From Burkholderiaceae bacterium (GTDB taxonomy: Bacteria > Pseudomonadota > Gammaproteobacteria > Burkholderiales > Burkholderiaceae), in the NCBI GenBank assembly GCA_030151165.1, contig JASLEM010000336.1, positions 1 to 13,306 of the forward strand: 13,306 nucleotides of DNA. The letters are read 5' to 3'. This document shows positions 1 through 13,306 of this stretch, piece by piece. The notes under the pieces were generated by a model. That model had not been told where the DNA came from and made no database searches. It saw only the letters and a program-made list of their open reading frames with translations. Both the position numbers and the translations under genes were made by a program. Every line of letters begins with the position of its first letter. Within the stretch, counting starts at the first letter, position 1.

Positions 1-573
1 CGGCAGCACGACGCTCCAGAACGTGCGCAGCTCGCCGCAGCCGTCCATGCGCGCGGCGTCGATCAGGTCGCGCGGGATCGCGCTGCCGATGTACTGGCGC
101 ATCAGGAAGATGCCCAGCGCGCCGGCCGCGCCGGGCACGTAGAGCGCGCGCGGCTCGTCGATCCAGCCGAGGAGGTCCATCACCATGAACGTCGGGATCA
201 TGTTGAGGAAGCTGGGCAGCATCATCGAGCCCACGACGAGCGCGAACAGCGGCTTCTTGAAGCGGAACTCGTGCACCGCGAACGCGTAGCCGGCGAGCGA
301 GCACAGCAGCAGGTTCAGCGCGGTCGTCATCAGCGCGACGTACAGGCTCAGCTCGAGGTTGCGCCAGAACGGCAGGCGATCGAGCAGCAGCGCGACGTTC
401 GACAGGAAGTGCGTGCCGAACCACAGCGGCGGCGGCGACGCGAAGATGTCGGTGCGCGAGTGCGTCGCGAACACGAACGTGAACCAGAACGGCGCCGCGA
501 GCAGCACGACGCCGGCCGCGATCAGCGCGAGCATCGCCAGGCGGGCGGGCGCGAAGCGTTCAGCGCGCGACAT
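1..573 (-). CDS. Carbohydrate ABC transporter permease, MalG type (3' end cut by window edge)
   Basis: This is an inner-membrane permease subunit of a family CUT1 sugar importer. The 191 residues present begin MSRAERFAPARLAMLALIAA. They show a first membrane segment at about 12-36, a periplasmic loop, then further segments at about 74-100, 108-134 and 142-158. The cytoplasmic EAA loop, which docks on the ATPase, begins at about residue 170 with the readable core DAARMDGCG and runs off the window. MalG-type proteins usually have about 270-290 residues, so roughly a third is missing. The ATG at 571-573 lies inside the upstream permease gene, giving a 14-bp overlap typical of translational coupling. 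It is the last gene seen of a leftward operon: TonB receptor, binding protein, MalF-type, MalG-type. The family is clear; the sugar cannot be read from the sequence. Confidence 0.93.
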   Translation of the reverse strand, partial: MSRAERFAPARLAMLALIAAGVVLLAAPFWFTFVFATHSRTDIFASPPPLWFGTHFLSNVALLLDRLPFWRNLELSLYVALMTTALNLLLCSLAGYAFAVHEFRFKKPLFALVVGSMMLPSFLNMIPTFMVMDLLGWIDEPRALYVPGAAGALGIFLMRQYIGSAIPRDLIDAARMDGCGELRTFWSVVLP

Positions 574-1534
574 CGCTCGCCCCTTCCTTGCCGAACAGGC
601 GCGCGTTGCCCCAGGTCAGCGCCGCGATGAGGAAGAACAGCAGCCACGAGACGGCGGACGCGGTGCCGAAGTCGCCGTCCGAGAACGCGATGCGGTACAT
701 GAACATCGCGGTGGTCATCACGTCCGTCGCGACGCCCGAGTCCGCCGGGATCAGGATGAACGGTTCCTCGAACAGCTGCAGGTTGCCGATCAGCGTGAGC
801 GTGATCGCGAAGAACATCATCGGCTTGAGCAGCGGCAGCGCGATGAGGCGGAACTGCTGCCATCGCGACGCGCCGTCCAGCGTCGCGGCCTCGTAGAGAT
901 CGCCCGAGATCACCTGCAGCGCCGACAGGTACAGCACGACGTTCCAGCCGAGGTAACGCCAGAACACGACGAAGGCGATCGTCACGTGGGCCCAGAACGC
1001 GTCGCCGAGCCAGTCGATCGGCGGGCCGGGCAGCAGCGCGTTGACGACGCCGAAGTCCTTCGAGAACAGCGTCGTGAAGATCAGCGCGATCGCGACACTC
1101 GAGGTCACGTACGGCACGAAGTACGCGCCGACCACGAAGTTCCGGCTGCGCTTCAGGGTCATGTGGATGAAGAACGCGAGCGGCAGCGCGACGAGGTGCT
1201 GCGGCACGCCCGACGCGACCGCGAACCACAGCGTGTTGAGCAGCGACTTCGCGAACCACGGGTCGGTGATCGCGTACTTGTAGTTCTCGAGCCCGACCCA
1301 GTGCATCGCGGCCAGGCCCGACGCGGCGTCCCACTGGTGCAGCGACAGCCAGATGGAGAACAGCAGCGGGAACAGGCCGAACACGCCGAACAGCAGGAAG
1401 AACGGCGCGATGAATGCGTAGGGCGCGAGCTTGCGAAGCAGCACGCGCCGGCGTGCGGCACGCGTACGTGCAAGGGTATGCGCGACGGCCGGAGCGGCTT
1501 GCGGCGCGAGATCGTCGGAGGTCATCGTCTGCAT
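560..1534 (-). CDS. Carbohydrate ABC transporter permease, MalF type
   Basis: This is the partner inner-membrane permease of the MalG-type protein, 324 residues, a normal length for a CUT1 MalF-like subunit without a large periplasmic insertion. After a basic cytoplasmic N-terminus (RTRAARRR at about 23-30) comes a first membrane segment at about 38-63. Further hydrophobic segments follow at about 100-124, 134-156, 182-206, 236-256 and 290-310. The EAA loop is at about 215-238 (EAATLDGASRWQQF, then ALPLLKP). The ATG at 1534 is six bases after the binding-protein stop; an in-frame ATG at 1525 is an alternative and neither has a strong Shine-Dalgarno. The stop overlaps the next permease start. 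It is probably co-transcribed with its neighbours and forms a heterodimeric channel with the MalG-type subunit. Confidence 0.95.
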   Translation of the reverse strand: MQTMTSDDLAPQAAPAVAHTLARTRAARRRVLLRKLAPYAFIAPFFLLFGVFGLFPLLFSIWLSLHQWDAASGLAAMHWVGLENYKYAITDPWFAKSLLNTLWFAVASGVPQHLVALPLAFFIHMTLKRSRNFVVGAYFVPYVTSSVAIALIFTTLFSKDFGVVNALLPGPPIDWLGDAFWAHVTIAFVVFWRYLGWNVVLYLSALQVISGDLYEAATLDGASRWQQFRLIALPLLKPMMFFAITLTLIGNLQLFEEPFILIPADSGVATDVMTTAMFMYRIAFSDGDFGTASAVSWLLFFLIAALTWGNARLFGKEGASDVAR

Positions 1535-1540
1535 GGCCGT

Positions 1541-2788
1541 TCAGCGTCGCGCGCGGTGTTCGATCAGCGACTTCGCATCGGCGAGCGCCTCGTGGATGTC
1601 CTTGCCGTGCTTGACGACGTTCTCGTACTCGGCGCGCACCACGTCGGTCGCCATCGAGTCGTACTTGTCGACCGGGATAGCCGGCACGCGCGCGGCGATG
1701 TCGCGCCACAGCGCGCGCGCCTTCTGGCCGCCGAGGAAGGGCATGGGCTCGTCGATGACGGGGTCGCGCTGCGCGTCGATGAGCGCGGGGAAGGTGTCGA
1801 GCGCGCGCAGCGATGCGAGCTGGGTGTCGCGGTCGGCGGTCATGAACTTCACGAACTCCCAGGCCAGCGCCTTGTGGTCGCTGTGCTTCGGGATCGCGTA
1901 GAACGAGCCGCCGTACGACGCCACCGCGCCGGCCGGCAGCACGGTCGAGCGCCACTTGCCGGCGGTGTCGGGCGCGAGCCAGTTCTTCAGGTGGCCCGCC
2001 AGCCACGCGCCCATCATCGCGCCGGCGATCTTGTCGGAGCGAAAGCCCGCGACCCACTCGTTCGTCCAGATCGTCGCGCCCGCGTCGATGCCCGCGCGGT
2101 GCGCGGCGCGGCCCAGTTCGAAGGCGCGGACGAAGCGCGGGCTGTCGACCAGCACCTTGCCGCGGCGGTCGAAGAACAGGCCTTCGCCCGCGGGCACGCC
2201 GGAGCGCAGCACGATGTCGCAGATGTCCTGGCTGTCGGCGAGGAGGTAGGCGCCGGTCGCGCGCTTGAGCTTGACGCCGGCGGCGATGAACGACTCCCAG
2301 CTCGCCGTCAGGTCGGGCTCGGCGAGCCCGGCCTTCGCGAGCAGGTCGGTGCGATAGAGCAAGGTGCCGGGGCCGATGTCGGCCGGCAGCGCGGAGAGCT
2401 CGCCGGCGTGGTTGGTGGCCTGCGCGATCGTGTAGGGCACGAACCGGTCGCGCAGCGCCGCGCCGTCGTAGGGCGGCTTGCCCAGGTCCTCGAAGCCGCC
2501 CGATTCGGCGAACTTCCCGATGAAGCGGAAGTCGACGGCCATCACGTCGGGCAGGTACGAGCCGGTCGCGAGCGAGGTGGTCATGGCGGTGTGGTGGTCG
2601 GCGTACTGGCGCGAGACGATCTTCACGTCGACGTCCGGATGCAATGCGCGCCAGCGCGGCAGCGCGGCCTTCGCGGCGCGGTCGAGGTCGGGGAACGTGG
2701 CGACGGTGATCGTCGTGGTCGCCGCGTGCGCCGCGAGGGCGCAGAGGCCGGCCGCGGCGAGCGCGATCGCCTGGAGGAGCTTGGGCAT
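1541..2788 (-). CDS. Extracellular solute-binding protein family 1 (sugar ABC transporter)
   Basis: This is a periplasmic sugar-binding protein of 415 residues, a typical length for the MalE/UgpB-like family. It begins MPKLLQAIALAAAGLCALAA and has a signal peptide with likely cleavage after AHA (about residue 22). The mature start TITVATFPDLDRAAK, the segment LPDVMAVDFRFIGKFAESG and the later PKHSDHKALAWEFVKFMTAD are characteristic of the fold. The open frame extends upstream into the TonB receptor gene, but the only start that begins a signal peptide is the ATG at 2788. It is preceded by a C-rich stretch without a Shine-Dalgarno and by stem-loops (see 2804-2855). It delivers substrate to the two downstream permeases and probably receives it from the TonB receptor encoded just upstream. 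The ligand is unknown; an oligosaccharide is likely from context. Confidence 0.94.
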   Translation of the reverse strand: MPKLLQAIALAAAGLCALAAHAATTTITVATFPDLDRAAKAALPRWRALHPDVDVKIVSRQYADHHTAMTTSLATGSYLPDVMAVDFRFIGKFAESGGFEDLGKPPYDGAALRDRFVPYTIAQATNHAGELSALPADIGPGTLLYRTDLLAKAGLAEPDLTASWESFIAAGVKLKRATGAYLLADSQDICDIVLRSGVPAGEGLFFDRRGKVLVDSPRFVRAFELGRAAHRAGIDAGATIWTNEWVAGFRSDKIAGAMMGAWLAGHLKNWLAPDTAGKWRSTVLPAGAVASYGGSFYAIPKHSDHKALAWEFVKFMTADRDTQLASLRALDTFPALIDAQRDPVIDEPMPFLGGQKARALWRDIAARVPAIPVDKYDSMATDVVRAEYENVVKHGKDIHEALADAKSLIEHRARR

Positions 2789-2803
2789 GGGGTTCGGCGA
2801 GAG

Positions 2804-2855
2804 GCCGGGCGGGTCGACGACCTCGGTCGATCGCCCGGCATGAGCCTTCGGGCTC
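2804..2855 (-). repeat. Paired stem-loops between TonB receptor and binding-protein genes
   Basis: Two inverted repeats fill the 68-bp gap. The first is GAGCC-TTCG-GGCTC at 2842-2855, a 5-bp stem with a four-base loop starting one base past the receptor stop. The second has perfect 8-bp arms, GCCGGGCG at 2804-2811 and CGCCCGGC at 2832-2839, enclosing 20 bases that can also pair internally (CGACC-TC-GGTCG at 2818-2829). No T-run follows in the direction of transcription, so a full intrinsic terminator is unlikely. A role in mRNA processing, or in setting the ratio of receptor to binding protein, is an inference. Confidence 0.5.
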
Positions 2856-2856
2856 G

Positions 2857-5289
<2,433 letters not shown>

Positions 5290-5292
5290 GTT

Positions 5293-5298
5293 GTCTCC
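5293..5298 (-). promoter_or_regulatory. Ribosome binding site deciding the GTG start of the TonB receptor
   Basis: Read on the minus strand the sequence is CTGGAGACAACGTG, which places GGAGA four bases before GTG at 5289-5287. The competing ATG at 5319 has only a weak GAAGA upstream. Confidence 0.55.
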
Positions 5299-5503
5299 AG
5301 TATTTTGATGGTGCGTCATCGGCCGTCTTCGCGGCGATTCTTCTCGTCGGCGGCGTCGTGCCGCGGGCCGCGCGCAGTGCGTGCGCAGCCGGCGCCGGCC
5401 CTTCTCCACGCGTTCCGGGCGGTCGTCGCGCGCCCTGCGGCGCGGCGTGGCGCCCTGCCGTCGCGGGCCTCTTGAGCCCGGCTTTCCGGCTGGAATGCGT
5501 CGC

Positions 5504-5532
5504 ATGATGCCGACCGATGACAACGCTGTCAA
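5504..5532 (-). promoter_or_regulatory. Predicted promoter of the TonB receptor / ABC transporter operon
   Basis: On the minus strand there is a consensus -35 TTGACA at 5532-5527, a 17-base spacer, and a -10 of CATCAT at 5509-5504 (four of six matches to TATAAT). Transcription would start near 5497, leaving a leader of about 200 bases. The -35 shares five bases with the 14-bp palindrome at 5518-5531, so a bound repressor would block RNA polymerase. This was identified by eye. Confidence 0.65.
5518..5531. promoter_or_regulatory. LacI-family operator 1 (TGACAACGCTGTCA)
   Basis: This is a 14-bp dyad with arms TGACA/TGTCA around a central CpG, the signature of LacI-family operators. It overlaps the -35 of the leftward TonB-receptor promoter. 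Its half-sites, TGACAAC and TGACAGC, match those of operator 2. The natural ligand is the LacI protein encoded at 7315-8421, possibly also its paralogue at 10910-11995. Confidence 0.8.
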
Positions 5533-5539
5533 CAAAGAA

Positions 5540-5569
5540 ATGACAGCGATGTCATTTCGCATTTATCAT
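5540..5569 (+). promoter_or_regulatory. Predicted promoter of the halogenase-lacI operon
   Basis: There is a -35 of ATGACA at 5540-5545 (five of six matches), an 18-base spacer, and a -10 of TATCAT at 5564-5569 (five of six). Expected start is near 5576, about 90 bases before the ATG. The -35 is embedded in the second palindrome (5541-5554), so this arm should be repressed together with the leftward arm. Since the operon includes lacI, the regulator would be autoregulated. Confidence 0.65.
5541..5554. promoter_or_regulatory. LacI-family operator 2 (TGACAGCGATGTCA)
   Basis: This second 14-bp dyad matches TGACAnCGnTGTCA and lies 23 bp (about two helical turns) from operator 1. It overlaps the -35 of the rightward promoter. 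The AT-rich spacer ACAAAGAAA (5532-5540) separates the two sites. No further copy of the motif was found elsewhere in the window. Confidence 0.8.
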
Positions 5570-5665
5570 CCGCTATATGAAGCGCCGCGAGCGGTCTACG
5601 GGAATACGCCGAGATCGCCGCGCCGCCCTTTCCATTCACGTTTGCGCGCCGACAGGCGACCCTCC

Positions 5666-7312
5666 ATGAACGCGATCCGGGACATCCTCATCGTCGGCGG
5701 CGGCACCGCCGGCTGGCTCACCGCGGCCTATCTCGCGCGCGCGCTCGGCACGGCCTCGGGCGGCGTGCGCGTGACGCTCGTCGAGTCCAGCGCCATCGGC
5801 ATCATCGGCGTCGGCGAAGGCACCTTCCCGTCGATCCGCGGCACGCTCGCGGCGATCGGGCTGGACGAGGCGCGCTTCGTCCGCGAGTGCGACGCGACCT
5901 TCAAGCAGGGCGTGAAGTTCGTCGACTGGCTGCATACCCCGAACCGTATCCCGGAAGGCGGCTTCGACCACTACTTCCATCCCTTCAACGCGCCGAGCCA
6001 GCGCGCCGGCGCGCCCGACCTGCTGCCGTACTGGCTGCTGGGCGGCGCGCCCGGACGCGCGTTCGCGGACGCGGTGTCGATGCAGAAGCGCGTGGCCGAC
6101 GCGTCGCGCGCGCCCAAGCGCGCGGGCGACGGCGACTGGCTCGGGCCGATGAACTACGCTTACCACTTCGACGCTGGCAAGTTCGCCACGCTGCTCGCCA
6201 CGCACGCGAAGTCGCTGGGCGTCGCGCATGTCGTGGCGACGGTCGACCGCACGGAGCTCGCGGACGACGGCCGCATCGAGTCGGTCGTCACGCGCGAGCG
6301 CGGCGCGATCCGGGCCGACCTGTTCGTCGACTGCACGGGCTTCCGTGCCGCGCTGATCGGCCAGGCGCTCGGCGCGCGCACGACGCCGGTGGACGACGTG
6401 CTGTTCGTCGACCGCGCGCTCGCGCTGCAGGTGCCGTACGCCGAGGCCGACGCGCCGATCCCGTCCTTCACGATCTCCACCGCGCACGAGGCCGGCTGGA
6501 CGTGGGACATCGGCCTGCACCGGCGGCGCGGCATCGGCTATGTCTACTCGAGCCGCCACACCGACGACGCGCGCGCCGAAGCCGTGCTGCGCCGCTACAT
6601 CGGGCCCGCCGCCGACGGCCTGGCGCCGCGCGCGCTGACGCTCGAGACCGGCTACCGCAAGACGCCGTGGATCGGCAACTGCGTGGCGGTCGGGCTGTCG
6701 GCGGGCTTCCTCGAGCCGCTGGAGTCGTCGGGCATCGGCCTGATCGAGACCGCCGCCTACCTCATCGCGCACCTGTTCCCGGCCGACGGCGACATGGCGC
6801 CGGTCGCCCGCCAGTTCAACGAGATGATGACCGCGCGCTTCGAGCGCATCGTCGACTTCCTGAAGCTGCACTACGCGCTGACGCGTCGCACCGACACCGC
6901 GTTCTGGCGCGACAACGCCGATCCGTCGACGTGGACGCCCGCGCTGCGCGACAAGCTCGCGATGTGGCGCTCGCGCCCGCCGCACCGGCTCGATTTCGTG
7001 GTCGACCTCGAGATGTATCCGCCGTCCAGCTGGCAGTACGTGCTGTACGGCATGGGGTATCCGACCGATCTCTCCGCCTCGCGCGCCGCGTGGCCGCGCA
7101 TGGCGCAGGCGCAGCAGGAGTTCGCGATGATCGCGCAGGTGGCGCAGCGCGCGGTGGCGGATCTTCCGGGGCATCGCACGCTCGTCGAGGCGATGGCCGA
7201 GCGCGGCGGCGACGCGGCGGCGCCGGTGCGCACGCCCGTCGAAGCGCGCGGCGCGAAGCCGTCGCTCGCCTCGCTGCAGCAGGCGGCCGGCGACGCCGGC
7301 GGGCGGGCGTGA
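5666..7312 (+). CDS. Tryptophan halogenase-family flavoprotein
   Basis: This is an FAD-binding protein of 548 residues, the usual length for the flavin-dependent halogenase family (about 510-550). The FAD site GGGTAGW is at 11-17 and GVGEGTFP at 48-55. Lys80 in ATFKQGVKF aligns with the catalytic lysine of PrnA/RebH. Glu354 in FLEPLESSG corresponds to the conserved catalytic glutamate. The WxWxIP signature is changed to WTWDIG at 279-284, so the proline is lost. The ATG at 5666 starts directly at the Rossmann strand. It is encoded divergently from a TonB receptor and sugar transporter and two bases before a lacI gene, not among antibiotic genes, so a role in sugar or plant-derived substrate use is more likely than tryptophan chlorination. 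Whether it halogenates at all is not known. It was probably repressed through operator 2. Confidence 0.9.
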   Translation: MNAIRDILIVGGGTAGWLTAAYLARALGTASGGVRVTLVESSAIGIIGVGEGTFPSIRGTLAAIGLDEARFVRECDATFKQGVKFVDWLHTPNRIPEGGFDHYFHPFNAPSQRAGAPDLLPYWLLGGAPGRAFADAVSMQKRVADASRAPKRAGDGDWLGPMNYAYHFDAGKFATLLATHAKSLGVAHVVATVDRTELADDGRIESVVTRERGAIRADLFVDCTGFRAALIGQALGARTTPVDDVLFVDRALALQVPYAEADAPIPSFTISTAHEAGWTWDIGLHRRRGIGYVYSSRHTDDARAEAVLRRYIGPAADGLAPRALTLETGYRKTPWIGNCVAVGLSAGFLEPLESSGIGLIETAAYLIAHLFPADGDMAPVARQFNEMMTARFERIVDFLKLHYALTRRTDTAFWRDNADPSTWTPALRDKLAMWRSRPPHRLDFVVDLEMYPPSSWQYVLYGMGYPTDLSASRAAWPRMAQAQQEFAMIAQVAQRAVADLPGHRTLVEAMAERGGDAAAPVRTPVEARGAKPSLASLQQAAGDAGGRA

Positions 7313-7314
7313 CG

Positions 7315-8421
7315 ATGGCGGAAAAGCCGCCGGCCACGGACGACGCCGCATCGCCGCCCCGCAAGACGAGCAATGGCGCGGGCACGACGATCAGCGACGT
7401 CGCGCGGCTCGCCGGCGTGTCGATCAAGACCGTCTCGCGCGTGATGAACAACGAGCCCGGCGTGCGGCCGCAGACGCGCGCCGACGTCGTGCGCGTGATG
7501 GCCGAGCTGCGCTACCGGCCGAGCCAGTCCGCGCGCAGCCTGGCCGGCGCGCGCTCGTTCCTGATCGGGCTGCTGTACTTCGACCCCAGCGCCGCGTTCG
7601 TCGCCGGCGTGCAGCAGGGCGCGACGATGCGCTGCCGCGAGGCGGGCTACCACCTCGTCGTCGAGTCGATGGACAACGACGCCGCCGACCTGCGCGAGCA
7701 GGTGCACCGCATGGTGTCGACGCTGCGCCCGGACGGCATGATTCTCACGCCGCCGCTGTGCGACAACCCGCACGTGCTGAAGGCGCTGCGCGAGAGCGGG
7801 ACGCCGACGGTGCTCGTCTCGCCGGCGCGCCAGCGCAAGGACATGCCCAGCGTGCGCATGGACGACGTCCACGCCGCCGAGGAGATCACCAACCTGCTGC
7901 TGAGCCTCGGCCACCGCCGCATCGCGTTCATCCGCGGGGCGCAGGACCAGGCCGCGTCGGCGCTGCGCCACCAGGGCTTCGTCAACGCGATGCGCGCGCA
8001 CGCGCTCGAGATCGACGACGCGCTGGTGGTCGACGGCGCGTTCACCTTCGACTCGGGCGTCGCCGCGGCGCACCGGCTGCTCAAGCTGCGCGACCGACCC
8101 ACCGCCGTCTTCGCCAGCAACGACGACATGGCGCTCGGCGTGCTCGCGGCGGCGCAGCGCCAGGGCCTGGACGTCCCCGACGACCTCTCGATCGCCGGCT
8201 TCGACGATTCGCCCGCCAGCAGCCTCGTGTGGCCGCCGCTCACGACCGTGCTGCAGCCGACGGTGGCGATGGCGCGCACGGCCGTGGAGCTGCTGATCGC
8301 CTCGCGCGCGGGCGACGGCGCGTCCGCGCTGCAGCGCGTGCTGCCGCACGAACTCGTGGTGCGCGACTCGACGAGCGCGCCGCTGATCCGCGAGCTCAGG
8401 CCGCGGCGCGCGCCGCGCTGA
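7315..8421 (+). CDS. LacI-family transcriptional regulator (local regulator of the uptake locus)
   Basis: This is a cytoplasmic ligand-responsive repressor of 368 residues. An N-terminal extension of about 23 residues precedes the helix-turn-helix (TTISDVARLAGVSIKTVSRV, about 24-43). The hinge-type segment LRYRPSQSARSLAG (66-79) and a periplasmic-binding-protein-like effector domain follow (TAVFASNDDMALGVLAAAQR; SIAGFDDSPASSLVWPPLTT). The ATG at 7315 follows the halogenase stop by two bases, so the two are one operon; a GTG at 7309 is a less likely start. It ends with a 26-bp tail-to-tail overlap with the PEP-CTERM gene. By location it should bind the two palindromes at 5518-5554. The inducer is unknown, presumably the imported sugar or a product of it. 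Confidence 0.94.
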   Translation: MAEKPPATDDAASPPRKTSNGAGTTISDVARLAGVSIKTVSRVMNNEPGVRPQTRADVVRVMAELRYRPSQSARSLAGARSFLIGLLYFDPSAAFVAGVQQGATMRCREAGYHLVVESMDNDAADLREQVHRMVSTLRPDGMILTPPLCDNPHVLKALRESGTPTVLVSPARQRKDMPSVRMDDVHAAEEITNLLLSLGHRRIAFIRGAQDQAASALRHQGFVNAMRAHALEIDDALVVDGAFTFDSGVAAAHRLLKLRDRPTAVFASNDDMALGVLAAAQRQGLDVPDDLSIAGFDDSPASSLVWPPLTTVLQPTVAMARTAVELLIASRAGDGASALQRVLPHELVVRDSTSAPLIRELRPRRAPR

Positions 8422-9433
8422 CCGGCGAACGGCGACGCGCCGCCAGGCCGATCGCCACCAGCCCGGCCAGCATCATCGCGACGCTCGCCGGCTCGGGCAC
8501 GGCGTTGACGTCGAACACCTCGAGGCTCACGAGGTTCGACACCCAGCGCCCGGCCTTGACGTCGTCCGGCGCGACGATGCGCGCGAAGCCGTTGTCCGTC
8601 AGCGGCACGCCGTTGTCGGCGAACGCGACCAGGTCGGGCTCGGCGCCGAAGTCGGGGTCGATCTCGCCCATCGAGAACACGGCCTTGTAGCCGTCGCTGC
8701 CGGTGGCCACGACATACATGCCCAGCACGTCGTTCTTGATCGCGGGATCGGTGTCGAGGCCCGTCACGCCGTTCAGCAGGCTCCACAGGCTGACACCCGT
8801 GTAGGTATCGCTGCCGACGGTGCGCGTCACCTCCGGCAGCGCCTGCAGGTCGGCGAGGTCGAAGCTCTCGGCATGGTGGACCGCGCCGCGGACCGCGAAC
8901 GACGTCGTCGGCTGACGGGTCGTCGCGCCTTGCGTCGAGCCGGAGCTCTCCACCGTCAGCTCGGCGAGGTTCGAGACGTAGCGGCCGCCCTTGTGGTCGC
9001 CGGGCGAGGTCACGCGCGCGAAGCCGTCGGCGCCGAGCGGCACCCCGGCATCGGACGTCGCGACCAGGCTCGCGCGGTGACCGAAGTTGGGGCTCAGCTC
9101 GCCGAGCGCGAAGACCGACTTGTAGCCGTCGCTGCCTTTCGCCACGACGATCTTGTTCAACACGTCGTTCTTCACGTTCGAGTCGACGACGATGCCCGCG
9201 TCGTTCAGCGTGCCCCACAGGCTAGGGCCGGTGTAGGTGTGCGTCTGCGGGGTGCCGGCGCTGGAGAAGGTGTCGGTCTGCGTGACCTGCGGCAGCGCCT
9301 GCAGGCGGGCGAGGTCGTAGCTGCCCGGGTGCGCGACGCCGCCGTCGACGACGACGCGGGTCGTCGGGCCGGCGGCCTGCGCGGCGCCGGCGAGCGCGAG
9401 GCAGGCGATGGCGGCGGCGATGTTCGTTCTCAT
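8396..9433 (-). CDS. Secreted PEP-CTERM protein with two molybdopterin-oxidoreductase-like domains
   Basis: This is an exported protein of 345 residues. It has a signal peptide (cleavage near AQA, residue 20), two homologous domains at about 25-162 and 178-308, and a C-terminal sorting signal. The sorting signal is VPEP at 312-315, a hydrophobic helix and an AARRR basic end. Each domain resembles the small Oxidored_molyb (sulfite-oxidase) fold: G.V..P.S.DLA.LQALP, a TYTG.SLW.LLN segment, and GSDGYK.VF..GE. The repeats share KNDVL, VVA-GSDGYK and the DFG/NFG motif; 18 bases (8684-8701 and 9119-9136) are identical in DNA. The mature protein has no cysteine, so the molybdenum-ligating Cys of the family is absent. 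The ATG at 9433 has GGAG eight bases upstream. It is divergent from a ModE-like regulator and may be controlled by it. Exosortase is not in the window. Function is unknown. Confidence 0.85.
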   Translation of the reverse strand: MRTNIAAAIACLALAGAAQAAGPTTRVVVDGGVAHPGSYDLARLQALPQVTQTDTFSSAGTPQTHTYTGPSLWGTLNDAGIVVDSNVKNDVLNKIVVAKGSDGYKSVFALGELSPNFGHRASLVATSDAGVPLGADGFARVTSPGDHKGGRYVSNLAELTVESSGSTQGATTRQPTTSFAVRGAVHHAESFDLADLQALPEVTRTVGSDTYTGVSLWSLLNGVTGLDTDPAIKNDVLGMYVVATGSDGYKAVFSMGEIDPDFGAEPDLVAFADNGVPLTDNGFARIVAPDDVKAGRWVSNLVSLEVFDVNAVPEPASVAMMLAGLVAIGLAARRRSPVSAARAAA

Positions 9434-9473
9434 GGGCGATCTCCTCGGACAAAGTCGGTGAAGGTGTGAAAAG

Positions 9474-9497
9474 CGTCATATCCATTCTGACATGACG
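9474..9497. promoter_or_regulatory. Predicted ModE-type operator between the PEP-CTERM and modE-like genes
   Basis: This is a 24-bp dyad, with left arm CGTCATAT (9474-9481), spacer CCATTCTG (9482-9489) and right arm ACATGACG (9490-9497). Seven of eight arm positions are symmetric. From memory, the E. coli modA operator has the same 8-8-8 layout (CGTTATAT-N8-ACATAACG), differing here at one position per arm. It lies in the only space shared by the divergent modE-like and PEP-CTERM genes. A TTGACG at 9507-9502 on the minus strand could be a -35 next to it, but no good -10 was found. Confidence 0.65.
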
Positions 9498-9547
9498 CCT
9501 GCGTCAATCGCGTGACGGCGGCCGCCGCTGCGGCTAGGCTTGAGGCC

Positions 9548-9946
9548 ATGCCACGCTCGACACCCTCCCCCGCCCCGGCGCCGAAAGCGCCGCCCGCCAC
9601 CCCGCAGCTGCGCCTGCGCATGCGCATCACCGACGGCGACACCGTCGCCATCGGCCCGGGCAAGATCGCGCTGCTCGAGGCCGTGCAGGCGCAGGGCTCG
9701 ATCACGGCGGCCGCGAAGAGCCTGGGCATGTCGTACCGCCGCGCCTGGGTGCTGGTCGACGAGCTCAACGGCGCGCTGCGGACGCCGGCCGTGACGTCCG
9801 AGCAAGGCGGTCCGCGCGGCGGCGGCAGCGTGCTGACGCCGGCCGGCGAGAAGGCGGTGCGCCTCTACCGCGCGATCGAGACGAAGGCGCTCGCGGCCTG
9901 CGCCGCGGACATCGCGCGGCTGCTCGCGATGGTGCCCGGCCGCTGA
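9548..9946 (+). CDS. ModE-type winged-helix regulator, DNA-binding domain only
   Basis: This DNA-binding protein has 132 residues. After a proline/alanine-rich start (PSPAPAPKAPPATP) comes the ModE/LysR-type winged helix. It begins LRLRMRITDGDTVAIGPGKI, continues through the helix-turn-helix (ALLEAVQAQGSITAAAKSLG, then MSYRRAWVLVDELN), and the wing ends in the typical GGGSVLTPAGEKAVRLYR. Full-length ModE is about 260 residues with two C-terminal molybdate-binding (Mop/TOBE) domains, which are absent here. It therefore either senses something else or depends on a partner. The ATG at 9548 is chosen because AGG lies nine bases upstream; an in-frame GTG at 9512 would add 12 alanine-rich residues. 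It likely acts at the dyad at 9474-9497, repressing itself and the divergent PEP-CTERM gene (inference). No molybdate transporter genes are adjacent. Confidence 0.88.
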   Translation: MPRSTPSPAPAPKAPPATPQLRLRMRITDGDTVAIGPGKIALLEAVQAQGSITAAAKSLGMSYRRAWVLVDELNGALRTPAVTSEQGGPRGGGSVLTPAGEKAVRLYRAIETKALAACAADIARLLAMVPGR

Positions 9947-9978
9947 ACGGCCGCGGCGCCGCGCGTCGCGTCAGGCGA

Positions 9979-10839
9979 TCACTTCTTCTTGCGCGCGAAG
10001 GCCTGCTGCAGCACGTCCGGATCGAATCCCGCGCCCGCGGCGCCGGTGGTCGCGTAGCGGTACAGCGCGGCCGAGTAGATTCCCGACAGCGCCGAGTGCG
10101 CCAGGGCCAGCGCCAGCAACGCGGCGACGCTCGCGGCGACGGCCAGCACGATGAGCGCCACGCTGCCGGCCATCGCCGCGCCGACGCACAACGCCGCCGC
10201 GCCGAGCGCCGCGGCCACGTACAGCAGCCCGAACGCGACGCTCAGCCCGCCCTGCCCGATGACGTTCTCGCCCCACGTCTTCTTCAGCATGCTCGCGCTT
10301 TCCCTGACGGCCTCGACCGGGCCGACGTCGCGGTGGACGAGGATCGGCACCACCATCGCGGTGGCCACCGTCCAGCCCACGCCCAGCAGGCCGACGACGA
10401 TGCGCCCGAGGAAGCCGACGCGCTCCTGGATCGCGCGCAGCACCATGCCGACGGTCGCCGCGATGATCGCGTAGCCGAGCAGGCTGCCGGCGCGCGAGCG
10501 CGCGACCTGCCAGCCGGCCGCGACCGTCGGCTCGCCGCCGTCGAAGCGGATCATCGCCGCGCCGACCAGCGCGGTGTTGCAGAAGAAGATCACGAAGTAC
10601 GAGCTGACGTAGAACAGCACGCCGAAGCAGAACATGGCCGGCGACACGTGGCCGCCGTCGCGCACCTGCGTGAGGCCGTCGATCGACCACAGGCCCACCG
10701 CGCCGAGCGCGAAGGCCGCGGCGACCAGCACCGTCGCCAGCGCCGAGACCAGCGGGAAGGCCAGCAGCTGGGTGTCCTGCTTCAGCACGGCCCAGCTCGC
10801 CCGGGTCAGGCTCCAGCTGCGCGAGAAACGTTCGAACAT
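9979..10839 (-). CDS. DUF6159 family integral membrane protein
   Basis: This is an uncharacterised inner-membrane protein of 286 residues. It opens with the family-typical MFERFSRSWSLTRASWAVLK, then membrane segments at about 27-50, 68-95, 118-138, 143-168, 198-222 and 225-250. The cytoplasmic loop HRDVGPVEAVRESASMLKKT (169-188) and a lysine-rich tail (ARKKK) complete it. The ATG at 10839 is supported by GAGGAG about eight bases upstream; an upstream extension in the same frame has no such site and no hydrophobic character. It lies 70 bases downstream of the second lacI gene on the same strand, with a strong hairpin between, so co-transcription is possible but not certain. It converges on the modE-like gene with a 32-bp gap. 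No molecular function is known for this family. Confidence 0.85.
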   Translation of the reverse strand: MFERFSRSWSLTRASWAVLKQDTQLLAFPLVSALATVLVAAAFALGAVGLWSIDGLTQVRDGGHVSPAMFCFGVLFYVSSYFVIFFCNTALVGAAMIRFDGGEPTVAAGWQVARSRAGSLLGYAIIAATVGMVLRAIQERVGFLGRIVVGLLGVGWTVATAMVVPILVHRDVGPVEAVRESASMLKKTWGENVIGQGGLSVAFGLLYVAAALGAAALCVGAAMAGSVALIVLAVAASVAALLALALAHSALSGIYSAALYRYATTGAAGAGFDPDVLQQAFARKKK

Positions 10840-10876
10840 GGCTCTCTCCTCTTCGTCGTTGATGTGTCTTTCGCCG

Positions 10877-10906
10877 GCGCGCGGCGCCCCGCGAGGCGCC
10901 ACGCGC
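10877..10906 (-). terminator. Strong GC hairpin after the second lacI gene (terminator or attenuator-like)
   Basis: The arms are GCGCG-C-GGCGCC (10877-10888) and GGCGCC-A-CGCGC (10895-10906). They form a 12-bp stem with one mismatch and a six-base loop. On the minus strand it starts three bases past the lacI stop at 10910. There is no T-run after it, so it is not a canonical intrinsic terminator. It could slow transcription into the DUF6159 gene or protect the lacI mRNA. Confidence 0.45.
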
Positions 10907-10909
10907 GCA

Positions 10910-11995
10910 TCATGCGCGCCTGCCCGCGGGCTCGCGCGCGCGGGCAGGCGATCGTTCGGCGGCACCGTGCGCCGGCGCGGCGGTCGATCCCCGCACCATC
11001 ACCTCGTGCGCCAGCACGCGCGTGGGCGGCTCGGTCGCGGCGCCCGGCTTGAGCTCGCCCGAGAGCAGCAGGTCGACCGCGGCCATCGCCATCTCGGCGA
11101 CCGGCTGGCGCACCGTCGTCAGCTCGGGCCAGACGAGCGTGGCCGCGCGCGAGTCGTCGAAGCCGACGATGGACAGCTCGCGCGGCACCGCGATGCCCAG
11201 GCGCTGGGCGGCGGCGAGCACGCCGAGCGCCATGTCGTCGTTGGCCGCGAAGACGGCCGTCGGCGGCACCGGACGGCTCAGCAGGCTGTGCGCGCCGTCG
11301 ACGCCGGAGTCGAAATCGAACCGGCCGGGGATGACGAGCGCCGGGTCGACCTCGAGGCCGTGCGCCGCCATCGCCCGCTCGAAGCCGTGCTGGCGCCGCT
11401 CGCTCGCGGCCTGGTCGCCCTGGATGAACGCGATGCGCCGGTGGCCCAGGCTCGCGAGCAGGTTGGTGAGTTCCTCGGCGGCGAGCGTGTCGTCCATCAC
11501 GACCTGCGCCATGCCGTGGCCGCCGCCGGCCGGCGAGATCAGCACGGTGGGCGTGCCGTGCGCGCGCAGCGTGGCGAGGACGCCGGGGTTGTCGCACAGC
11601 GGCGGCGTGAGGATCATGCCGTCGGGCCGCAGCGCCGACAGCATCGCCTCGGTCTGCGGCTGCAGGTCGGCGCCGTCGCTCTGCAGCGATTCGACGACGA
11701 GGTGGCGGCCGGCCTCGCGGCAGCGCAGCGTGGCGCCGCGCTGGATGCCCGCGACGTAGGCCGCGCTCGGTTCGTAGTACAGCAGGCCGATGAGGAAGGA
11801 CTTCGCGCCGGCGAGGCTGCGCGCGGACAGCTGCGGGCGGTAGTTCAGCTCGGCGACGACCTGGAGCACCAGCGCCCGCGTCTCCGCGTGCACGGTCGCC
11901 TCCTTGTTCATCACGCGCGAGACGGTCTTGATCGACACGCCGGCCTTCTTCGCGACGTCGACGATGGTGGGCGGTGCGCCCGCTCGCTTGTTCAA
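10910..11995 (-). CDS. LacI-family transcriptional regulator, paralogue of the one at 7315-8421
   Basis: This is a repressor of 361 residues. The helix-turn-helix is at about 10-29 (TIVDVAKKAGVSIKTVSRVM begins it). The hinge LNYRPQLSARSLAG and the effector domain follow (TAVFAANDDMALGVLAAAQR; SIVGFDDSRAATLVWPELTT). Over the 98 residues from RSLAGA to SPA, 73 are identical by eye to the other LacI protein, and the recognition-helix core AGVSIKTVSRVMN is the same. The TTG at 11995 is chosen because GAGGGG sits five bases upstream and the product then begins nine residues before the helix-turn-helix. The first in-frame ATG upstream is about 290 bases away, in a stretch without LacI-like sequence. 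Its target is unclear: no matching operator is seen at its own promoter, so it may act at 5518-5554 or outside the window. Confidence 0.92.
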   Translation of the reverse strand: MNKRAGAPPTIVDVAKKAGVSIKTVSRVMNKEATVHAETRALVLQVVAELNYRPQLSARSLAGAKSFLIGLLYYEPSAAYVAGIQRGATLRCREAGRHLVVESLQSDGADLQPQTEAMLSALRPDGMILTPPLCDNPGVLATLRAHGTPTVLISPAGGGHGMAQVVMDDTLAAEELTNLLASLGHRRIAFIQGDQAASERRQHGFERAMAAHGLEVDPALVIPGRFDFDSGVDGAHSLLSRPVPPTAVFAANDDMALGVLAAAQRLGIAVPRELSIVGFDDSRAATLVWPELTTVRQPVAEMAMAAVDLLLSGELKPGAATEPPTRVLAHEVMVRGSTAAPAHGAAERSPARAREPAGRRA

Positions 11996-12357
11996 ATCTT
12001 CCCCTCTCGGACTCGTTCGGCTTCCCGGGCGCGCCGGCCGGATGGTCGCCCGGCCCCGTCGACGCGCCCGTGGATCGCGGGCGCGCGCCCCTGTTCCGAT
12101 GCAATGTGCCACAGGGCCGGGCGCGCGCCGCGCGGGAGCTTCACCTAGGCGTGGCTCAATCCCCAAGTCGTGTTGCCGGATGCGACGAAAGCTTGCCGTT
12201 AGCTGAAGCTCTGTTGCTCCGAGCCTTCGCGAGCCGGCCGCGAGACAAAACGAAACACGGCGATACGGCGATGAAAGCATCATCCGGGCCGCGAAGTGCG
12301 TAATAGGGACGTGCCGATCGACAAGGCCGGCACACCACCAACCCCAAGGAACAGATC
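11996..12357. other. Intergenic region between the divergent lacI paralogue and spy-like gene
   Basis: The 362 bases contain no gene with recognisable protein content; the open frames crossing them are low-complexity Arg/Ala/Pro products. The start-proximal ends hold the lacI ribosome site (GAGGGG, 12001-12006) and the spy-like ribosome site (AAGGA, seven bases before 12358). The part at 12170-12260 is less GC-rich and may carry both promoters, but no convincing -35/-10 pair was found. An imperfect dyad AGCTT-N11-AAGCT occurs near 12190-12210. No TGACAnCGnTGTCA operator is present. Confidence 0.5.
12001..12006 (-). promoter_or_regulatory. Ribosome binding site deciding the TTG start of the second lacI
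   Basis: On the minus strand the sequence is GAGAGGGGAAGATTTGAAC, which places GAGGGG five bases before TTG. It is the only plausible initiation signal upstream of the helix-turn-helix. Confidence 0.65.
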
Positions 12358-12867
12358 ATGAAGACGAACTGGCTCAAGCGCACCCTGATGGGTGTGGCCG
12401 CCTCCGCAGCCCTCATCGGCGTCGCCGCTTACGCGCAAGGCGCCTTCCACGGCGGCCCGCCGTCGGCCGCCGACATGGCCGCCCACCAGGCCCGCATGCT
12501 CGAACACATCGGCAAGCGCCTGAACCTCGACGCCGCCCAGCAGGCCAAGCTGCAGGCGCTCGCCAACACGCTGCACGCGCAGCACCAGGCGATGATGACC
12601 GGCGCCGCCGACCCGCACGCCCGCATGCAGGCGCTGATCGCCGGCAACACCTTCGACCGCGCCGGCGCGCAGCGGCTGGTCAACGAGAAGGTCGCGCAGG
12701 TCCAGGCCAACAGCCCCGCGATCATCGCCGCCGCCGGCGACTTCTTCGACAGCCTGAACCCGACCCAGCAGCAACAGGTGCGTGATTTCGCGGCCAAGCA
12801 CCACGGCATGGGCGGCCACATGGGCCACCACGGCCAGGCGCCGGCGTCGGCGACGACGACCAACTGA
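12358..12867 (+). CDS. Spy/CpxP-like periplasmic protein (LTxxQ family)
   Basis: This is a periplasmic helical protein of 169 residues, as usual for the Spy/CpxP family of chaperones and stress modulators. It has a signal peptide with cleavage after AYA (residue 26) and two degenerate LTxxQ motifs, LNLDAAQ (55-61) and LNPTQQQ (133-139). Long amphipathic helices lie between them. A His/Met/Gly-rich tail follows ([12 protein letters not shown], about 148-159) that could bind copper or another metal. The ATG at 12358 has AAGGA seven bases upstream. The next gene on the strand, 133 bases on, encodes a response regulator, so this is probably the CpxP- or Spy-type accessory of that two-component system, acting at the sensor or as its output. 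The family call is firm; the signal is inferred. Confidence 0.88.
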
Positions 12868-12874
12868 GCCGGGC

Positions 12875-12897
12875 GAGGTGGACGAGACATCCACTTC
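12875..12897 (+). repeat. Short inverted repeat after the spy-like gene
   Basis: GAGGTGGA (12875-12882) pairs with TCCACTTC (12890-12897) across a seven-base loop, giving eight RNA base pairs including one G-U. It lies eight bases past the spy-like stop. No T-run follows, so it would be at most a partial terminator or an mRNA end-stabiliser before the response-regulator gene. Confidence 0.35.
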
Positions 12898-13000
12898 GCG
12901 CCGATATTTCCGGGGCGCGCCCAGGCCGGGCCGCGCTTCGGCCTCGATTTCCTCGCGCTTTGGCGCACTGCATGTCCGCGCAGGGTCGGCTTCTCCTAAC

Positions 13001-13306
13001 ATGACCTCCATGCGCCGCATCCTGATGATCGACGACGACGCGCTCCTCGCCGCGCCGCTCGCCACCTATTTCCGCCGCTTCGACTTCGAGCTCGACAGCG
13101 CCACCAGCCCCAGCGAGGGCCTGGCCAAGCTCGCCGCGCAGCCTTACGACGCCGCGATCCTCGATGTGATGCTGCCCGAGATGGACGGCTTCGAGCTGTG
13201 CCGCGCGATCCGCAAGGACAGCGACATCCCGATCGTCATGCTCACCGCGCGCGGCGACGTGATGGACCGCATCGTCGGCCTCGAGATCGGCGCCGACGAC
13301 TACATC
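13001..13306 (+). CDS. Response regulator, receiver domain (cut by the right window edge)
   Basis: The 102 residues present are the phospho-acceptor receiver domain of a two-component response regulator, most like the OmpR/CpxR group. The acidic pair and following residue are DDD (11-13), the phosphorylated aspartate is Asp55 in [13 protein letters not shown], the conserved threonine is Thr82 in VMLTARGD, and the sequence ends at GADDYI just before the conserved lysine. The DNA-binding half lies beyond the window. ATG at 13001 and an in-frame ATG at 13010 are both possible starts; neither has a clear Shine-Dalgarno. The preceding spy-like gene on the same strand suggests an envelope-stress or metal-responsive system, with a histidine kinase expected downstream. 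Confidence 0.93.

Follow-up and report, generated by a model that had tools for sequence, protein, structure and literature searches.

A conserved ModE-type box before the gene for a secreted tandem SUOX-fold protein: a probable extension of the molybdenum regulon to the cell envelope

We analyzed a 13,306-nucleotide stretch of DNA (the window; contig JASLEM010000336.1, positions 1 to 13,306 of the forward strand, assembly GCA_030151165.1) from a Burkholderiaceae bacterium. The element of interest is an inverted repeat, or dyad, between two divergent genes, one encoding a secreted protein with two tandem sulfite oxidase (SUOX) folds and a PEP-CTERM tail (the target) and the other a short regulator of the ModE type. 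We found that the dyad is very probably a ModE-family operator of the target gene, judging from its form and from its recurrence before homologous genes. The features are:

8396..9433, minus strand: target gene, encoding a 345-amino-acid secreted tandem SUOX-fold (Oxidored_molyb) PEP-CTERM protein (PF00174, PF07589, AlphaFold2)
9371..9433, minus strand: signal peptide, approximately residues 1-21, MRTNIAAAIACLALAGAAQAA, read from the sequence, boundary by eye
8939..9370, minus strand: SUOX-fold domain 1, approximately residues 22-165, boundaries by eye
8510..8911, minus strand: SUOX-fold domain 2, approximately residues 175-308, boundaries by eye
8429..8503, minus strand: PEP-CTERM sorting signal, residues 311-335 (PF07589 and TIGR02595)
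9474..9497, no strand assigned: ModE-type box, a putative operator (8-8-8 dyad, 13/16 positions, conserved before nine homologues)
9548..9946, plus strand: single-domain ModE-type (ModES-like) regulator of 132 amino acids (TIGR00637, 82.1 bits; PDB matches; no TOBE domain; possible GTG start at 9512)

The initial annotation had placed an 8-8-8 dyad in the gap between a ModE-type regulator and a secreted PEP-CTERM gene, and both the dyad and its location were confirmed. Positions 9474-9497 read CGTCATAT CCATTCTG ACATGACG, with seven of eight pairs complementary in the 8-8-8 register. A repeat search extended the dyad to a 10-6-10 form, with arms at 9473-9482 and 9489-9498 that are 6 nucleotides apart and have 9 of 10 pairs (90%). 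It is the only such element in the 114 bases between the ATG of the PEP-CTERM gene (9433, minus strand) and that of the regulator (9548, plus strand); the GTG at 9512 is in frame with the latter. The consensus for Escherichia coli ModE, as quoted in an excerpt of PMC545781, is ATCGNTATATA-N6-TATATANCGAT, that is, CGNTATAT-N8-ATATANCG. Compared to the half-sites CGTTATAT-N8-ATATAACG, the dyad agreed at 13 of 16 positions. At position 4, T is replaced by C and its partner A by G; the symmetry of the dyad is retained because the substitution was made in both arms. When the 100 bases preceding the ATG were shuffled 4000 times with dinucleotide content kept, no shuffle reached the score of the dyad (top score 11; p ≤ 0.00025, a value bounded below by the number of shuffles). 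A search of the window with CGTYATAT-N8-ATATRACG, allowing up to three mismatches, returned this one site.

We compared the regions upstream of homologous genes at 20 places, the window and 19 other loci. Twenty stretches around homologues were fetched, representing 13 of 24 matches (from 21 of 399 genomes) and 6 and 1 places from two other searches; the remaining 11 of the 24 matches were scanned within a set of 20 weaker matches. L144 was excluded from the upstream count, its gene being without its 5' part. Start codons were picked by eye as the ATG that yields a signal peptide. The closest homologues (P0002-P0005, 76-79% identical) and many further tail-only or weak matches from one homologue search stood outside the comparison.

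A box matching at least 11 of 16 positions (range 11-15) was present at 10 of the 20 places. The distance from the end of the box to the ATG was 40 bases in the window, 27 in L125, 16 in L126, 26 in L127, 14 in L128, 17 in L129, 14 in L130, 14 in L131, 15 in L132 and 16 in L133. That is, the window box is the furthest from its gene, compared to 14-27 bases in the nine other loci. Identity of the nine boxed homologues with the window protein was 34-61% (from tblastn or the genome search), and all had two domains, except L133, which has one. Shuffle p-values for single loci ranged from 0.00025 to 0.03, with a Fisher-combined value of 7e-22 over the 10 loci, uncorrected for shared ancestry. By the terms of the initial annotation, its proposal would fail if the gaps between orthologous genes did not conserve the dyad; this check was made and did not refute the proposal. 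Its proposal of a ModE-type operator before a secreted protein of the molybdopterin fold gained support from this conservation, which includes boxed loci with no regulator gene found nearby.

We also searched 10 host genomes of the homologues (~51 Mb, up to three mismatches) and found 26 boxes, compared to 6 for a reversed-pattern control. Seven of the 26 were located 14-27 bases before target-type genes (in genomes G673, G003, G592, G458, G516, G566 and G529). Eight were at modE or mod genes (G673, G003, two each in G516 and G566, G529 and G611), with the assignment in G611 based on weak similarity (29%). One preceded a helix-turn-helix (HTH)-nitroreductase gene (G783). In G458 the single box of the genome lies directly before the target gene.

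The regulator has the winged-helix DNA-binding domain of ModE. Its closest solved structures were 2ijl, a 135-residue 'molybdenum-binding transcriptional repressor' (E 3.3e-20), and E. coli ModE, 1b9m (E 4.7e-11). A Pfam scan of the 132 amino acids returned HTH families only and no TOBE/Mop molybdate-binding domain, and full-length ModE has two TOBE domains. Since it has none, we class the regulator, by its domain content, as ModES-type, with a DNA-binding domain only. The initial description of a ModE-type regulator needs correcting to this extent. ModE-domain matches were found in 15 of 15 genomes of a census. Strong matches (>75 bits) in G451, G516, G458, G611, G529, G001, G006 and G008 were in frames of 131-205 amino acids, and therefore full-length ModE was not seen in these eight genomes; G003 has a second strong match in a 327-amino-acid frame.

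The short ModE of Agrobacterium tumefaciens, ModES (Hoffmann et al. 2016, Mol. Microbiol. 101:809), reportedly represses modABC via Mo-boxes and follows the status of the molybdenum cofactor (Moco) rather than molybdate. It shares with the window regulator a lone ModE DNA-binding domain with no molybdate-binding domains, and differs in that the boxed neighbor here is a secreted surface protein rather than modABC. The resemblance to E. coli ModE lies in the 8-8-8 dyad, a half-site near CGNTATAT and a homologous winged helix; the differences are the missing TOBE domains, the departure of CGTCATAT at position 4 in both arms, and a new class of target. A single-domain ModE of Desulfovibrio also consists of the DNA-binding domain alone, but its predicted site before mod genes is CGGTCACG-N14-CGTGACCG (from the same excerpt of PMC545781).

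In several Aquimarina loci (L020, L023, L024, L027-L029, L031-L036 and L049), a box ends 0-15 bases before a match to a ModE-type gene. The position of these boxes suggests autoregulation in the Bacteroidota too.

The target protein has both a predicted signal peptide (by eye) and a PEP-CTERM tail. PF00174 matched it over two stretches with 37 bits (cut-off 24), PF07589 with 29.7 bits (cut-off 20.7) and TIGR02595 with 22.6 bits (cut-off 16). The AlphaFold2 model had a predicted local distance difference test (pLDDT) of 92 and a predicted template modeling score (pTM) of 0.86. Conserved residues of domain 2 echo those of domain 1 at an offset of approximately 145. An exosortase scored above its cut-off in 4 of the 10 genomes of relatives (G516, G451, G003 and G592), and in four relatives a lipobox replaces the PEP-CTERM signal.

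There is no cysteine in the target outside the signal peptide, and none after residue 35 in 100 of 120 homologues among the matches listed. The target shares the PF00174 fold with the enzymes sulfite oxidase, SorA and YedY, and family profile A2 matched SorA (E 7.8e-8). In contrast to these enzymes, the family is missing the loop that carries the cysteine ligand of molybdenum, which appears as an insertion relative to the profile. We rejected a sulfite-oxidase identity for this reason. The molybdopterin-binding fold noted initially is there, as a tandem SUOX fold by PF00174, but the target is unlikely to act as a molybdoenzyme.

In kind, the target is closest to PruR, a periplasmic pterin-binding protein (PDB 7kos, 7kom and 7rkb; PMC13259868). 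Both are secreted SUOX-fold proteins with no molybdenum-ligand cysteine. PruR has one domain of ~170 amino acids and is encoded with a dcpA/DTB regulator, whereas the target has two tandem domains, a PEP-CTERM or lipid anchor, a ModE-type box and a molybdenum-regulon context. A PDB search with the window protein by itself returned no match, and mapping the pterin-site tryptophan of PruR onto the target gave no placement at the level of single residues.

The target and its regulator belong, by gene order, to the molybdenum regulon in relatives. The short regulator was within 1.6 kb of the target at 6 of 10 places that have a two-domain gene or a fragment of one. It was divergent in the window and L132, convergent in L128, and downstream in L125, L126 and L144. 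In G516 (L126), modA, modB and modC (by Pfam a binding protein, a permease and an ATPase) immediately follow this short regulator, which is 1.4 kb from the secreted-protein gene. One box precedes the regulator and another lies between it and modA (3368-3391 of L126), and in the latter the half-site CGTCATAT recurs on the opposite strand. In addition, L001 (Methylotenera) and L010 (Roseateles) have the short regulator and modABC in divergent orientation. Because the regulator in G516 heads modABC near the target, the target seems to have joined the molybdenum regulon as an extra member and not to form an isolated pair with its regulator. The initial annotation had described a small pair in which the secreted protein is controlled rather than a molybdate transporter. 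This contrast was not borne out for the group; 'as well as' a transporter fits.

Based on these results we infer the following sequence of events, which we consider likely overall: the dyad would be a ModES operator and the target an envelope-tethered member of a regulon for molybdenum or Moco starvation. When molybdenum, more exactly Moco, is sufficient, a ModES dimer would occupy the box near the transcription start and silence the secreted-protein gene and, probably, the ModES gene as well. Repression under sufficiency is itself probable. In most relatives the ribosome-binding site follows the box immediately, an arrangement that fits repression much better than activation from upstream. 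During shortage, derepression would affect both the target and modABC, the latter at another place in the genome, and the tandem SUOX-fold protein would be exported and anchored in the envelope, by PEP-CTERM and exosortase here and by lipid in some relatives. The anchored protein may then bind a pterin or molybdenum species and help the cell keep or collect it. A role of this kind, in binding or acquisition of molybdenum or pterin, is possible, though somewhat less likely than not. We regard as more speculative still a specific form of it, in which the target is a tethered two-site binder of pterin or Moco on the outer face during Moco shortage, as a scavenging arm of the molybdenum regulon that works alongside modABC and, in lineages other than these, alongside a dedicated TonB receptor. 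If this is true, molybdenum would be captured as a pterin or chelate complex and not only as free molybdate.

Several results weigh against the proposal of a starvation-regulon operator. For the organism itself the evidence is confined to the window, and any modABC, exosortase and other boxes of its genome would lie outside it. The homologous loci are not independent samples. No box was found near the gene at 10 of the 20 places (L134-L143); in L137, L139 and L143 the gene is within a longer cluster, with boxes further up, before a TonB receptor or a preceding gene. Among the 20 weaker matches, the 400 bases upstream held a box scoring 12/16 or more in 4 (L072, L081, L119 and L124) and none in 16; six of the 20 duplicate other places (L072-L076 and L078 are L140, L141, L142, L137, L138 and L139). 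The boxes before the targets in G451 and G611 score 12/16 and 11/16. For 10 of the 26 genomic boxes no link to molybdenum was made: five (L177, L180, L188, L190 and L191) had no adjoining match to mod, ModE or SUOX-fold queries, the nearest thing in L190 being a 34% match to a TonB receptor ~1 kb from the box, and five were not fetched. L001 and L010, where ModES diverges from modABC, have no listed box scoring 13/16 or more. The TIGR00637 score of the regulator is below the curated cut-off of 98.5 bits. A scan of 9380-9600 returned no sigma-70-like promoter, and overlap of box and promoter is therefore read from distance alone. Since the box is kept before two-domain genes and missing at most weaker matches, it marks, as far as these sequences tell, the two-domain family and a few others and not PF00174 at large.

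Could the dyad be something else? We find it barely credible that it arose as a random palindrome or belongs to a different regulator. Three of 16 consensus positions do differ, and a lone box could arise by chance, but the shuffles in the window, the combined value over 10 loci and the excess over reversed-pattern boxes argue otherwise, and we rejected a chance palindrome on the shuffles and the conservation. It is also very improbable that the box serves only the regulator gene, by autoregulation, with the secreted-protein gene a bystander of the divergent layout. The window and L132 each have one box between both genes, so the window alone does not separate this from control of the target; ModES is likewise preceded by a box in L125, L126 and L144, as are ModE-type genes in Aquimarina loci such as L028. 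However, eight homologues with no divergent regulator (L125-L131 and L133) each carry a separate box at 14-27 bases from the ATG, and on this basis we rejected a regulator-only box.

The other alternatives concern the direction of control and the role of the target. E. coli ModE activates as well as represses, and it activates moaA. A ModE-type protein that is loaded with molybdenum or signaled by Moco might thus turn the target on when molybdenum is plentiful, for storage or detoxification, and the 40 bases between box and ATG in the window leave the most room for this. At 9 of 10 loci, though, just 14-27 bases separate the box from the ATG (14-16 at six), which is too close unless the transcript is nearly leaderless, and we think activation unlikely. 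We give somewhat more weight, still well short of favoring it, to the notion that the target is a PruR-like receptor for a pterin signal, with the molybdenum regulon setting only its amount and with no role in molybdenum uptake. The likeness to PruR is offset by the single domain of PruR, by relatives that sit with modABC and TonB receptors, and by the five window neighbors scanned in frame, among which there was no dcpA/DTB- or sensor-kinase-like partner. We continue to favor a ModES operator that represses the target.

ModE-type control has been described for modABC and for genes of molybdoenzymes. Both the site and the type of regulator belong to familiar kinds; what is new is the target. 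In the portions of the open-licence PMC literature searched, we found no ModE-type box before a PEP-CTERM or PruR-like gene and no paper on Oxidored_molyb together with PEP-CTERM. A conserved ModE box before an envelope-anchored, cysteine-less SUOX-fold protein would extend the molybdenum regulon to the cell surface. It would also join two topics not found linked in the portions of the literature searched, short ModE proteins that reportedly follow Moco and PruR-like secreted pterin-binding proteins, and it hints that, under molybdenum scarcity, some bacteria display proteins that bind the metal or a pterin at the cell exterior.

Excerpts of PMC8233155 describe tupABC and a hypothetical PEP-CTERM gene of Marinobacter atlanticus that rise together at anodic potentials. 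We did not use this as expression evidence; there was no two-domain relative in 81 Marinobacter genomes. Profile A1 had eight weak matches in 7 of the 81; two covered a single domain (best E 2.1e-5), and the other six covered the tail region.

Searches of three genera (1, 5 and 1 genomes) gave no new homologues, and the 10 of 399 genomes matched in the order (G516 and nine others) had all been matched before. In the class, 3 of 369 genomes matched, two of them new but weak. Among plasmids, 138 records had short DNA similarity, none covering 80%, and 6 had a protein match.

Other gene arrangements were seen around SUOX-fold genes. In L143 (1367-7042), L137 (4210-11001), L138 and L139, a TonB-dependent receptor, a SUOX-fold protein and a full-length-type ModE form a cluster, with modABC in L137, L138 and L143 and ModE boxes nearby. 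The SUOX-fold proteins have cysteine in L138, L139 and L143 and a cytochrome c domain in L137, and Pfam found TOBE domains in the ModE of L137 and L143. By gene content this looks like a molybdenum-regulated outer-membrane uptake module. An HTH_1-nitroreductase fusion (by Pfam in L133, by tblastn elsewhere) adjoins a short ModE or SUOX-fold gene in L133 (6610-7497), L134 (6632-7471), L005-L007 and L152; a ModE-type box lies between or upstream of these genes in L005-L007, L133 and L134, with none listed in L152. A plasmid of Deinococcus psychrotolerans (L194, 3904-6274) has a SUOX-fold gene inside a mod-type operon with modA, a TOBE protein, a 'molybdopterin-dependent oxidoreductase' and an ATP-binding cassette (ABC) permease. 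In L130, L131 and L132, where the target is a lipoprotein, the next gene encodes a MauG-like di-haem cytochrome c peroxidase (Pfam for L131, tblastn for the others). G003 has a second target copy (L003 1-1505, also L144) that starts abruptly, its 5' part missing; by eye an unrelated gene precedes it, and the start is possibly an assembly junction.

The flanks of the window itself (2857-8421 and 9979-12283) encode a TonB receptor, a flavin adenine dinucleotide-dependent protein (halogenase-like, by weak matches), a LacI-type regulator and DUF6159. Inspection by eye added another LacI-type frame and frames resembling ABC permeases. Read from gene content, the flanks are perhaps a sugar-uptake island with no evident molybdenum link.
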